Both the position numbers and the translations under genes were made by a program. A model generated the notes under the pieces. The model saw only the letters and a list, made by a program, of their open reading frames with translations, had not been told where the DNA came from and made no database searches. A stretch of DNA of 64,000 nucleotides from Anseongella ginsenosidimutans (GTDB lineage Bacteria; Bacteroidota; Bacteroidia; Sphingobacteriales; Sphingobacteriaceae). Positions 56,972-59,837 of this stretch are shown piece by piece. The stretch is from NCBI RefSeq assembly GCF_008033235.1, contig NZ_CP042432.1:2852001-2916000 (forward strand). Direction: 5' to 3'. Position 1 is the first letter of the stretch, and each line of letters opens with the position of its first letter.

Positions 56972-58264
56972 TCAAATTCCGCCTCGCCTGATTGCCACCG
57001 ACCGTCTGTGCGCTTCCAGTCCTTCAATTTCTGCCAGGGTTTCGATAATCGGGCCCAGGTTGGCTATTCCCTCTTCCGTGATATGCTGGAAGGTCACTTT
57101 CTTTACAAAAGCATCAACGGAAACGCCTGAATAAGCCCTGGCAAAGCCGGACGTAGGCAGGGTATGGTTGGTGCCGGAGGCATAATCGCCGGCTGCTTCG
57201 GGTGCGAAATTACCCAGGAAAACCGAACCGGCATTCCGGATCTGCGGAATCAGCGATTCGTACTGCTCACTGGCAAGGATCAGGTGTTCGCTCGCATAAT
57301 GATTGGCAAAGGTAACCGCTTCGTTCAGGTTGGCTGTTTCAATAGCGTAGGAATTACTCAGGGCTTTGCCGGCAATTTCCATGCGCGGCAGTTCCGCCAG
57401 CTGGTCGCTCAGCGACTTATTCACTTTTTCAATAATTCCTGCCGAGGTGGCAACCAGGATAGCCTGGCTGTCCGGGCTGTGTTCCGCCTGTGCCAGCAGG
57501 TCAGCGGCGACAAAATCGGGGCGGCAGCTTTCGTCTGCGATTACCAGCACTTCCGAAGGGCCTGCGGGCATGTCTATGGCGACTCCGTAGCGGGAATGTA
57601 CGATCATTTTGGCCCTGGTGACATATTGATTTCCGGGTCCGAACAGCTTGCTCACCTTGGGAATGGTTTCCGTGCCCAGGGCCATAGCGGCAATAGCCTG
57701 CGCTCCGCCAACGATATACACTTTTTCTATGCCTAATATTTTTGCCACGTAAGCAATGTAAGGGCTTAATTTTCCGTCTTTTCCCGGCGGGCAGCAAACA
57801 ACGATATCGCGGCAGCCCGCTATCTTGGCCGGAATGCCCAGCATTAGCAGGGTGGAGGGCAGCACAGCCGTTCCGCCGGGAATATAAAGGCCTACTTTCT
57901 GTATGGCCCTGTATTCCCGCCAGCAACTAACCCCCCCGGTAGTTTCAATTTTCTCTTCCCGGGCCAGCTGCGTCTGGTGGAACTTATAGATATTAGCATA
58001 GGCCACCTGGAGCGCTTTACGTGCCTTTTCGTTAACCTGCGCCGCCAGTTTGCCCAGTTCTTCTTTTTCCACGAATAAACGTTCCGGAATGACGCCGTCA
58101 AACTTTTCCGCAAAGTCTGATAAAGCATGGTCGCCCGCGTCCTTTACCCGGTCAATGATCTCTTCGACGGTTTTACTGATCTTATTGGATACGTCGATAT
58201 TGCGTTCACATAAACCAGCGATCTCCAAGGCGCTTAGTTTAGCGTATGAATAGGCTTTCAGCAT
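56972..58264 (-). CDS. hisD: Histidinol dehydrogenase
   Basis: 430 residues, full length. YIPGGTAVLPSTLLMLGIPAKIAGC, the FGPGNQYVTRAK block, PAGPSEVLVIAD, AEHSPDSQAILV (zinc and catalytic residues), and SGTNHTLPT. It oxidises histidinol to histidine with 2 NAD+. Its ATG shares one base with the hisG TGA (TGATG), so the two are translationally coupled. Confidence 0.98.
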   Translation of the reverse strand: MLKAYSYAKLSALEIAGLCERNIDVSNKISKTVEEIIDRVKDAGDHALSDFAEKFDGVIPERLFVEKEELGKLAAQVNEKARKALQVAYANIYKFHQTQLAREEKIETTGGVSCWREYRAIQKVGLYIPGGTAVLPSTLLMLGIPAKIAGCRDIVVCCPPGKDGKLSPYIAYVAKILGIEKVYIVGGAQAIAAMALGTETIPKVSKLFGPGNQYVTRAKMIVHSRYGVAIDMPAGPSEVLVIADESCRPDFVAADLLAQAEHSPDSQAILVATSAGIIEKVNKSLSDQLAELPRMEIAGKALSNSYAIETANLNEAVTFANHYASEHLILASEQYESLIPQIRNAGSVFLGNFAPEAAGDYASGTNHTLPTSGFARAYSGVSVDAFVKKVTFQHITEEGIANLGPIIETLAEIEGLEAHRRSVAIRRGGI

Positions 58265-59118
58265 CAGAAAATTATTTTTTCAACAGGAAGCACCACGATT
58301 CCCTGGGCTCCTGCCTTGCGCAGTTTGCTGATCTTCTCCCAGAAGTCTTTTTCAGAAATGACGGTGTGTACGGCGCACCATCCTTCTTCGGCTAAAGGAA
58401 CAATAGTAGGGCTTTTTATGCCAGATAGCAAATTGCTGATCGCTTCGATATTACTGCGTTCGGTATTCATGACCACGTACTTGTTTTCCTTGGCACGGAG
58501 TACCGATCGCAATCTTAATAACAATTCCTGGACCTGCTCGTTTTCATCAGCGATACCATTTTTTGCGATAAGAATAGCTTCCGAGGAAAGCACGTCTGCA
58601 AAAGGCTTTAAGCCGTTGCTCTTTAATGTGCCTCCTGTGGAAACTATGTCACAAATGGCGTCGCTCAGCCCGAGGTTGGTGGATATTTCCACCGATCCGC
58701 TGATGACCCTGACATCGGCCTGTACCTGGTTCTTGTTCAGGAATTTCTTCAGGATATTCGGGTAGGAAGTAGCAATGGACTTTCCTTCCAGGTCATTAAG
58801 GCTGTTGATTTCGCTATGGTTCGGAACCGCGATCTTAAGCGTGCATTTCCCGAAGCCCAGCCGGTGCAGGTAGGTAACGTCAGCCCCGGTTTCCTCGATC
58901 ACATTTTCTCCAACGATGCCCAGGTCGGCGATGCCGTCCTGCACGTATTCGGGGATATCGTCATCACGGAGGAAAAGGATTTCCAGCGGGAAGTTTTGTA
59001 CGGGGGAGATCAGCGAACTCTTGTAGTTTTCGAAACTAAGCCCGCATTTGCTGAGAATATCTACTGATTTTTCGTTGAGCCGCCCGGATTTCTGTATGGC
59101 GATTTTGAGAGTTTTCAA
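58264..59118 (-). CDS. hisG: ATP phosphoribosyltransferase, long form
   Basis: 284 residues, the long (HisG-L) form with a C-terminal regulatory domain (residues about 215-284; YVVMNTERSNIEAISNLLSGIKSPTIVPLAEEGWCAVHTVI) for histidine feedback. Conserved IAIQKSGRLNEKS, DGIADLGIVGENVIEE, and the PRPP loop DIVSTGGTLKSNGL. First and committed step of the pathway. The only start in frame is TTG at 59118 after an in-frame TAA. A His-rich leader ORF lies 66 bp upstream. Confidence 0.97.
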   Translation of the reverse strand: MKTLKIAIQKSGRLNEKSVDILSKCGLSFENYKSSLISPVQNFPLEILFLRDDDIPEYVQDGIADLGIVGENVIEETGADVTYLHRLGFGKCTLKIAVPNHSEINSLNDLEGKSIATSYPNILKKFLNKNQVQADVRVISGSVEISTNLGLSDAICDIVSTGGTLKSNGLKPFADVLSSEAILIAKNGIADENEQVQELLLRLRSVLRAKENKYVVMNTERSNIEAISNLLSGIKSPTIVPLAEEGWCAVHTVISEKDFWEKISKLRKAGAQGIVVLPVEKIIF

Positions 59119-59285
59119 ATTATAAATTTTATTTACTGCGCGTTAAAAATGAAGTTGCTGGTCCTTTTCAGGGTTGAAATTACGCTATACACCACTCACG
59201 TGGTGATGATGCATATGGGAATGGATAAACAGCAGCTTCATAATGAGTAATTAAAATTTAACACGTGCATGTTTCAGCACAGCCG
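59119..59285 (-). promoter_or_regulatory. Putative his operon leader (attenuator) region
   Basis: The region from the predicted start (about 59278) to hisG holds the His-rich leader ORF (59241-59185). A CACCAC-gtga-GTGGTG hairpin is built partly from the His codons (plus coordinates 59190-59205). A segment 59149-59160, followed by T5, is complementary in 11 of 12 positions to the first 12 bases of the leader ORF (59230-59241). This gives mutually competing structures tied to translation of the leader. A classic short GC-rich terminator is not seen, so the exact switch is uncertain. Confidence 0.6.
59185..59241 (-). CDS. hisL: Histidine-rich leader peptide of the his operon
   Basis: Eighteen codons read MKLLFIHSHMHHHHVSGV then TAG: six His, four of them in a row (CAT CAT CAC CAC). 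It is on the his strand, 66 bp before hisG and 44 bp after a TATATTTG -7 box. This is the hallmark of ribosome-mediated his attenuation, in which ribosome stalling at His codons when His-tRNA is scarce changes RNA folding. No Shine-Dalgarno sequence, which is normal for this phylum. Shorter initiation at the internal ATG (59214) would give MHHHHVSGV. Confidence 0.75.
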   Translation of the reverse strand: MKLLFIHSHMHHHHVSGV

Positions 59286-59293
59286 CAAATATA
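59286..59293 (-). promoter_or_regulatory. -7 box of the his operon
   Basis: On the minus strand TATATTTG matches TAnnTTTG perfectly, 44 bp upstream of the leader ATG. No clear -33 TTTG was found. Confidence 0.55.
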
Positions 59294-59303
59294 GCTAATT
59301 GTT

Positions 59304-59837
59304 TCAGCTATAAAAACGTTTCAGGTAATAATCCCAAACCAGGATTCCTGCGCTTACCGCAATGTTCAGGGAGTGTTTGGTGCCAAACTGGGGAATCTCG
59401 ATACAGTCGCCGGCGCGGGCCATGGCTTCATCGCTTACCCCGTTTACTTCGTTTCCGAAAATGAAGGCGTATTTTTCGGTTGCAAGGGGCCGGAATTCAT
59501 TAAGCGGAAGGCTCTGTTCGGCCTGCTCAATGGCAATCAGGAGGTAATTTTCTTCCTGCAGCGCGTTTAAGGCCTCATGGATATCCCGGGCATATTGCCA
59601 TCGGACCGAACGGGTGGCTCCAAGGGCGGTCTTCTCAATTTCCCGGTGGGGCGGCTGGCCCGTGATGCCGCATAGCCAGATCTCTTCCACGGAGAAGGCG
59701 TCCGCGGTCCGGAAAACAGACCCCACATTATTCATGCTGCGTACATTGTCCAGCACGATAGCAAGGGGAAGCTTTGGCTGTTTTCTGAACTCCTCCAGGC
59801 CGGGCCTTCCCAGCTCTTCATTTTTCAGTTTTCTCAC
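59304..59837 (-). CDS. TrmH/SpoU-family RNA 2'-O-methyltransferase
   Basis: 177 residues, SPOUT fold: LDNVRSMNNVGSVFRTADAF, IFGNEVNGVSDEAM, and IEIPQFGTKHSLNIAVSAGIL are motifs 1-3 of the trefoil-knot methyltransferases. It methylates a ribose of tRNA or rRNA; the site cannot be told. Start is GTG at 59837. It has no N-terminal substrate-binding extension, so it is the short type. Confidence 0.92.
   Translation of the reverse strand: MRKLKNEELGRPGLEEFRKQPKLPLAIVLDNVRSMNNVGSVFRTADAFSVEEIWLCGITGQPPHREIEKTALGATRSVRWQYARDIHEALNALQEENYLLIAIEQAEQSLPLNEFRPLATEKYAFIFGNEVNGVSDEAMARAGDCIEIPQFGTKHSLNIAVSAGILVWDYYLKRFYS

Follow-up and report, generated by a model that had tools for sequence, protein, structure and literature searches.

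A histidine-rich leader before hisG in Sphingobacteriaceae, a conserved rod-like RNA and a presumed output at hisG translation

In a stretch of DNA of 64 kb (the window, that is, the whole stretch that was analysed), a short open reading frame (ORF) rich in histidine codons precedes hisG. The locus raises two questions, namely, whether this ORF is the sensor of a his attenuator and, if so, on which step of gene expression the attenuator acts. Best known is the hisL attenuator of enteric bacteria, which is represented in Rfam by the family His_leader. An earlier note on this DNA had proposed that the ORF senses the charging of His-tRNA by ribosome stalling, in analogy to hisL, and had remarked that the RNA following it does not resemble the classic GC-rich terminator. 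Comparison of the locus with its counterparts in relatives was used to answer both questions.

The leader ORF and its conservation

The ORF has 18 codons, six of them for histidine, including four consecutive ones, and lies exactly where the earlier note had placed it (Table 1). The perfect TAnnTTTG box that had been described upstream of it was recovered as well, TATATTTG being an exact fit, and so was the distance of 66 bp (59184..59119) to hisG, the start of which is a UUG at 59118 that was placed by homology. Transcription is expected to start near 59280, as judged from the position of the box. The genes 3' of hisD are presumably hisC and hisB, as judged from their sequences.

Table 1. Features of the leader region and the neighbouring genes, from upstream to downstream; positions refer to the window.
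Feature	Position	Strand	Basis and remarks
SpoU-type RNA methyltransferase gene	59304..59837	minus	same strand, upstream; 10 nt separate its end from the promoter box
TATATTTG, Bacteroidota -7 promoter box	59286..59293	minus	TAnnTTTG motif match
P1, 5' strand, just 5' of the leader AUG	59246..59260	minus	minimum-energy fold; register in the window uncertain
His-rich leader ORF, MKLLFIHSHMHHHHVSGV and stop codon	59185..59241	minus	ORF reading, conservation in relatives
P4, 5' strand, leader start codon and codons 2-4	59230..59241	minus	fold, family pairing test
P2 hairpin, CACCAC-GUGA-GUGGUG, late in the leader ORF	59190..59205	minus	fold, compensatory changes
P3 hairpin, UUUCA-ACCC-UGAAA, after the leader	59166..59179	minus	fold, compensatory changes
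P4, 3' strand, CAGCAACUUCAU, then UUUU	59149..59160	minus	fold, family pairing test
P1, 3' strand, ending 4 nt before the hisG UUG	59123..59137	minus	fold and family covariation
hisG (long form)	58264..59118	minus	Pfam HisG and HisG_C; UUG start, no nearby in-frame AUG
hisD	56972..58264	minus	Pfam; overlaps the hisG stop; hisC and hisB (presumed) downstream

A chance origin of the His-rich ORF was ruled out by its uniqueness, by shuffling and by its conservation. On both strands of the 64 kb window it is the sole ORF of at most 45 codons with at least six His codons, and when the 212 nt preceding hisG were dinucleotide-shuffled, six were reached in 2 of 3000 cases. That the ORF is real is settled by its conservation in relatives. 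A leader with at least four His codons is present at 29 of 30 loci of the window's family, the window's own locus counted (L027 is the miss), and at 79 of 80 loci of named relatives, the exception (L093) having just 20 nt of upstream sequence. These named relatives are the best 80 of 465 relatives of the window's HisG. The three that were looked up all belong to the Sphingobacteriaceae; most of the 80 are species of Pedobacter, Mucilaginibacter, Olivibacter, Parapedobacter, Solitalea and similar genera, which we take to belong to the same family. Both kinds of His codons occur in the leaders (192 CAT and 59 CAC). Of 44 non-redundant family members, 43 have a TAnnTTTG box at most 90 nt 5' of the leader AUG, versus 0 of 40 control stretches further up. 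The earlier note had named two ways in which it could be wrong, a His run that is not conserved in relatives and transcription that starts downstream of 59241; judged by sequence, the former is contradicted by the family counts and the latter by the conserved promoter box upstream of the ORF.

A model of the element, R1, which comprises the leader and hairpin P3, was built from 33 of the 35 leaders used for the pairing analysis below (L014 and L088 were left out). A single strong match apiece (E 2e-5 or better) was obtained in 40 of 61 family genomes, at least 16 of which had contributed sequences to R1; the next matches had E values of 0.002 or worse, and 8 of the 61 genomes had no match. In all 29 of the 40 genomes for which the position of hisG was compared, the match lies 5' of hisG. 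The window's genome gave a single match with R1 and thus no second copy at another gene. G001, the one other genome of the window's genus among those searched, gave neither a hisG match nor a leader match. Three Solitalea-like loci (L017, L023, L062) have leaders with 11-12 His codons, a different downstream sequence and a hisG with AUG, and no P3 was called by script in L017.

A part of the peptide, FTHHxHFHHRxCGD, is alike in many members, as would be expected if the leader encoded a small protein, e.g., a metal-binding His-rich peptide; the ORF might also raise hisG translation via reinitiation. Such a role is extremely improbable. The peptide varies between clades, whereas the His codons persist, the R1 element occurs as one strong match per genome and always 5' of hisG where compared, and the gap of 66 nt is far from the peak at 11-14 nt given for reinitiation in Bacteroidetes (PMC4833913).

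His leaders of the class and the missing terminator

hisG was found in 136 of 296 genomes of the class, 13 of which belong to the window's family. From the other 123 genomes, 77 upstream regions were compared, 17 of them best matches and 60 spread over the families (for L126 only 86 nt of upstream sequence were available). A leader with at least four His codons precedes hisG at 53 of these 77 loci, spanning 25 of 37 families, and by the same rule 24 loci are without one; dinucleotide shuffles yielded 0.4 such leaders on average, and the reverse strand 0. A canonical terminator was called after the leader by a hairpin script in 44 of the 53 cases (0.0 expected in mononucleotide shuffles). Because leaders span the class in this way, the His leader before hisG is probably an old his attenuator, to which the window's family is an exception. 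The class-wide occurrence of His-codon leaders, most of which are followed by a canonical terminator outside the family, also supports the view that the leader senses His-tRNA charging by ribosome stalling, which we regard as very likely.

In the window's family, one of 44 his leaders has a canonical terminator (0.2 expected in mononucleotide shuffles), and that one is the P2 hairpin. In the window, a consensus scan detected no GC-rich terminator between leader and hisG and gave a weak candidate 5' of the leader only (59281-59264). A classical terminator was rejected, as both the consensus scan and the hairpin script found none between leader and hisG; the remark that the RNA switch is unlike the classic GC-rich terminator therefore proved correct for the whole family. 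A terminator like AAGGGCUUACC..GGUAAGCCCUUUUUU, the type of the other families, was not found after the leader in the window's family. No Rfam leader family matched the window, and none matched 20 other loci, a set that included five of the window's family.

The trp operon of the same bacteria behaves differently. A leader with at least two Trp codons is present at 25 of 26 trpE loci of the window's family (L216 has no leader), and a canonical terminator follows in 21 of the 25 by script; in this count L210 was scored on the wrong ORF, and L214, L215 and L225 are terminator-like by eye and failed the script. The trpE loci L205-L230 display Trp-rich leaders, often with WWW, and GC-rich terminators. 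Since trp leaders with terminators exist in the same bacteria, the loss of the terminator appears to be particular to the his leader. The window's own genome also contains a Trp leader with a GC-rich terminator before trpE (VVYQTIHTGWRWHETKHAAGFCVD). Its trpE (G000:C1:1529836-1531190) seems to be in two pieces, with one TGA and one TAG as internal stops, reflecting either decay or a sequencing error.

Some observations on the other families are of interest in their own right. The His-rich leaders among these loci (L118-L134, L135-L194), most of them with a GC-rich terminator, are a candidate new RNA family and gave no Rfam match in those loci that were searched. Six leaders are Chitinophaga-like (L121, L122, L137, L156, L165, L169), a set too small for a pairing test. 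Five of the six end with HHSS or similar and have a hairpin UUCCUC..GAGGAA spanning the stop codon; five are without a terminator by script, L122 being scored with one, and in L121 and L137 hisG seemingly starts with UUG. A complement of at least 8 nt to the hisG start was found at 9 of the 77 loci, at four of them with another sequence than AUGAGUAAA. At L146, L161, L173, L174 and L183, hisG begins near AUGAGUAAA, with a complement of 9-10 nt at most 60 nt upstream, and the start codon could be sequestered there in addition to the terminator.

Pairings between the leader and the hisG start region

When the leaders of the family are listed, their segments are clade-specific and yet match each other. 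A segment-swap test was applied, in which the pairing energy of a leader's own segments is compared with that of segments swapped between species. Of 114 family leaders, 44 were kept at less than 80% identity; 35 of these have a recognisable P3 and hisG within 110 nt (L008, L011, L017, L025, L034, L044, L052, L089 and L114 were dropped), and 34 remained without L003. In a screen of 21 segment pairs in the 35 leaders, three kinds stood out, and the other 18 had z values of -0.9 or higher.

The best supported pairing is P1, which connects the 22 nt 5' of the leader AUG and the final 32 nt upstream of hisG (z -8.7, 0/10000, 34 leaders). With nt -32..-10 of hisG as 3' segment, z is -9.0 (0/20000 permutations, 33 leaders), and in a strict set of 19 leaders with 5' strands less than 55% identical it is -6.4 (0/20000); the loci share ancestry, so that the P values are overstated. 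P4, between the leader start and the stretch after P3, has z -4.5 in 34 leaders and z -3.4 in its strict set of 8. Leader codons 4-11 pair with the sequence that runs from the stop codon of the leader through P3 (z -4.4, 34 leaders), a helix that is no longer significant in the strictest set of 8 leaders (z -1.4). Some off-register pairs gave signals as well: in 34 leaders, codons 4-11 and the stretch after P3 (z -3.3) as well as the leader start and the final 32 nt (z -2.9), and, in the strictest set, the 5' strand and the post-stop stretch (z -2.8). The three supported pairings nest in antiparallel order and together make up a rod. The hisG start region, nt -32..-10, is thus predicted to be held in a conserved helix.

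Among the sets compared, P1 is confined to the his leaders of the window's family. Neither 45 his leaders of other families, 43 of which have a terminator called by script (z 0.5), nor the 25 trp leaders described above (z 0.1) showed it; the same 45 leaders gave a weak signal when the 5' strand was tested with the last 60 nt (z -2.1). The two hairpins show compensatory changes, from G-C to A-U in P2 (9 of 33 sequences) and from C-G to G-C in P3 (5 of 33), and in many relatives P3 reads GUUUC-UACGU-GAAAC or GUUUUG-UACUU-CAAAAC. A search for conserved His codons and covarying stems near hisG, which the earlier note had recommended, thus turned up both, as the His codons are kept and the rod pairings covary in the family. 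The window's own fold includes P1, P4, P2 and P3 (z -3.7 versus shuffles). Its P3 loop deviates, the helix of codons 4-11 is absent, and the best duplex of its 5' stretch is in a different register from the P1 of the fold.

Start codons of hisG and the output of the attenuator

At 99 of 101 family loci with the leader at most 90 nt away, hisG has a UUG or GUG start without a nearby in-frame AUG (exceptions: L007 and L042), and the same is true for 38 of 38 non-redundant loci. When the leader is more than 90 nt away, hisG starts with AUG at 13 of 13 family loci (6 non-redundant), and in the other families an in-frame AUG is available for hisG at 72 of 77 loci, leader or no leader; the Fisher P values of these contrasts, 2e-15 and 5e-41, are inflated by relatedness. 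In Parapedobacter indicus (L070), the leader stop is 71 nt away and hisG has UUG; in P. luteus, P. koreensis, P. soli and P. composti, the leader is 140-319 nt from hisG, which starts with AUG. The Parapedobacter loci L034, L035, L041 and L044 have retained the leader and rod elements, with hisG 140-319 nt downstream and an AUG start, and an old-looking UUGAAACC or UUGAACC is left near the former start site. A distance of 100-319 nt between leader stop and hisG, at which P1 cannot cover the hisG start, is seen in Olivibacter, in Solitalea and in four of five Parapedobacter.

It is mainly due to this start-codon pattern that the output is placed at the translation of hisG. Together with P1 and the terminator counts, it leads us to favour, with some reserve, an attenuator that reads His-tRNA charging in the leader and acts on hisG translation, not on termination. 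With ample histidine, ribosomes would clear the leader and the RNA would close into one long rod, composed of P1, P4 and the pairing of leader codons with the post-stop stretch, with P2 at its tip. In this closed state the start of the leader would be locked, and so would be, to a lesser degree, the sequence directly preceding the weak UUG or GUG of hisG. When charged His-tRNA is short, ribosomes would stall at the early His codons and the rod would stay open, so that in most members the post-stop stretch folds as P3. Following ribosomes would occupy the leader start, the strands of P1 would be kept apart, and initiation at hisG would become possible. The leader and its conservation, the rod pairings, the lack of a terminator and the non-AUG start of hisG are shown by the comparison; stalling, this kinetic step, in which slow leader ribosomes prevent re-closure of the rod and keep the leader start occupied, and hisG translation as the output are what we infer.

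Folding with a positioned ribosome agrees with parts of this scheme. When a ribosome was placed on the first His codon, rod pairing of the post-stop stretch fell from 0.69 to 0.04 (all values are means of 34 leaders) and P3 rose from 0.21 to 0.69, a predicted shift from rod to P3; P4 fell from 0.66 to 0.14, and P1 stayed (0.73 to 0.62). With the ribosome at the leader stop codon, values of 0.60 for P4, 0.33 for the post-stop pairing and 0.09 for P3 were obtained. The window's own P3 does not follow this shift: upon the first-His stall, its P4 changes from 0.83 to 0.00 and its P3 from 0.69 to 0.44, and only P4 responds. The mean opening energy of the hisG start at equilibrium was 5.1 kcal/mol without and 5.0 kcal/mol with the first-His stall, and a direct opening of the hisG start by the stalled ribosome was thus not seen at equilibrium. 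With a ribosome on the leader AUG it was 3.8 kcal/mol, opening being easier in 20 and harder in 10 of 34 leaders. For the window's copy, the first-His stall changed it from 5.0 to 6.0 kcal/mol, and occupation of the leader AUG gave 2.8 kcal/mol. Equilibrium folding alone does not predict a translational output, least of all for the window's copy. The translational reading was kept in spite of this because of the start codons and P1.

The leader start itself is closed far more tightly by the rod than the hisG start. Its mean opening energy climbs from 5.1 kcal/mol in a transcript to P3 via 7.8 kcal/mol in one that ends 32 nt before hisG to 11.8 kcal/mol in the full transcript, the last step being seen in 31 of 34 leaders. 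This increase is what one would expect if the rod were a closing device only, which shuts the leader start behind the first ribosome and thereby limits the leader to one round of translation during transcription, with hisG being controlled otherwise, e.g., by Rho acting on untranslated hisG. We consider this improbable, as it gives no reason why P1 should lie next to the hisG start or why hisG has non-AUG start codons.

Another alternative is an unconventional terminator, in which the rod, via P4, stops the polymerase before a U-rich stretch unless a ribosome at the first His codons covers the 5' strand. In the window, P4 is the stall-responsive helix and its 3' strand CAGCAACUUCAU is followed by UUUU, and in some relatives (e.g., L018, L026, L043, L055) the helix of the leader start stands directly before a U tract. 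The mean response of P4 to the first-His stall has the sign that a terminator requires, the 8 nt after the 3' arm of P4 contain 52% U versus 41% in the stretch, and his leaders of other families mostly end in terminators. A terminator of this kind would also suit loci such as those of Parapedobacter and Olivibacter, where the rod lies far from hisG. Of 44 leaders, 23 contain a run of five U, versus 14.8 expected in mononucleotide shuffles; however, dinucleotide shuffles give 19.4, i.e., no enrichment. Moreover, the canonical hairpin is present in just one of the 44 family leaders, the 3' strand of P1 adjoins hisG, past the P4 arm and the U tract, and the UUG and GUG starts of hisG have no place in this explanation. 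It is thus unlikely in our view, albeit less so than the closing device.

The preferred reading, control of hisG translation, relates to known systems in several ways. As in the window, enteric hisL is a short ORF with a His run between the promoter and hisG. The analogy drawn by the earlier note stands for the sensor, since His-codon leaders are found throughout the class, and not for the output: the window's leader has neither an intrinsic terminator nor an Rfam match, and it has instead a long-range helix to the start of a hisG with UUG or GUG, which points to hisG translation. The terminator-type his leaders of other families share the His-rich leader and its place before hisG within the same class, but differ by their GC-rich terminator, the lack of P1 and the availability of AUG for hisG. 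Translational attenuators of the ermC type likewise rely on ribosomes that stall in a leader and thereby open a downstream start; they are drug-induced and operate by sequestration of a Shine-Dalgarno sequence, whereas the presumed signal of the window's leader is amino-acid scarcity. Bacteria of this lineage mostly do without Shine-Dalgarno sequences.

A conserved structured 5' element without an Rfam match has been described upstream of hisG in Flavobacterium psychrophilum, and the authors see clues of leader-peptide attenuation upstream of amino-acid operons (PMC9723704). It concerns the same gene and phylum, but a member of the Flavobacteriaceae, and the accessible part of that text gives neither a mechanism for hisG nor a terminator-free variant (PMC9723704). 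The LEU element upstream of leuA in Actinobacteria comprises a leader ORF with cognate codons, no terminator is described for it in the accessible part of the paper, and its authors doubt attenuation since codon changes had no effect (PMC1262725). The likeness lies in the cognate-codon leader and in a base stem that reaches the start region of the downstream gene, and the difference in leucine, leuA and a pseudoknot there versus a His leader at hisG here (PMC1262725). Leader-like small ORFs in general are treated in a study on Bacteroides thetaiotaomicron (PMC7366714), and the word "leader" is absent from an article on the his genes of the phylum (PMC8305728). Among the matches listed from the open-licence literature, none was found to describe His leaders in Sphingobacteriaceae or, in Bacteroidota, a his attenuator that lacks a terminator. 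With respect to these matches, the sensor is of a known kind and the translational output would be a variant without a description.

In the Sphingobacteriaceae, an ancestral transcription attenuator of the his operon may have become a translational one: the terminator would have been lost, the initiation regions of leader and hisG paired with each other, and hisG turned to a non-AUG start, while the trp leader remained a terminator switch. We give this scenario about an even chance. If it is true, the non-AUG start would make hisG expression follow the ribosome occupancy of the leader, and the translational reading thus provides a possible reason why UUG and GUG are conserved as hisG starts. 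His leaders are widespread in this class of Bacteroidota, without an Rfam match among the loci searched, and one lineage would have kept the sensor and exchanged the output. With different outputs of its his and trp leaders, this lineage would allow the change to be located and put to a direct test.
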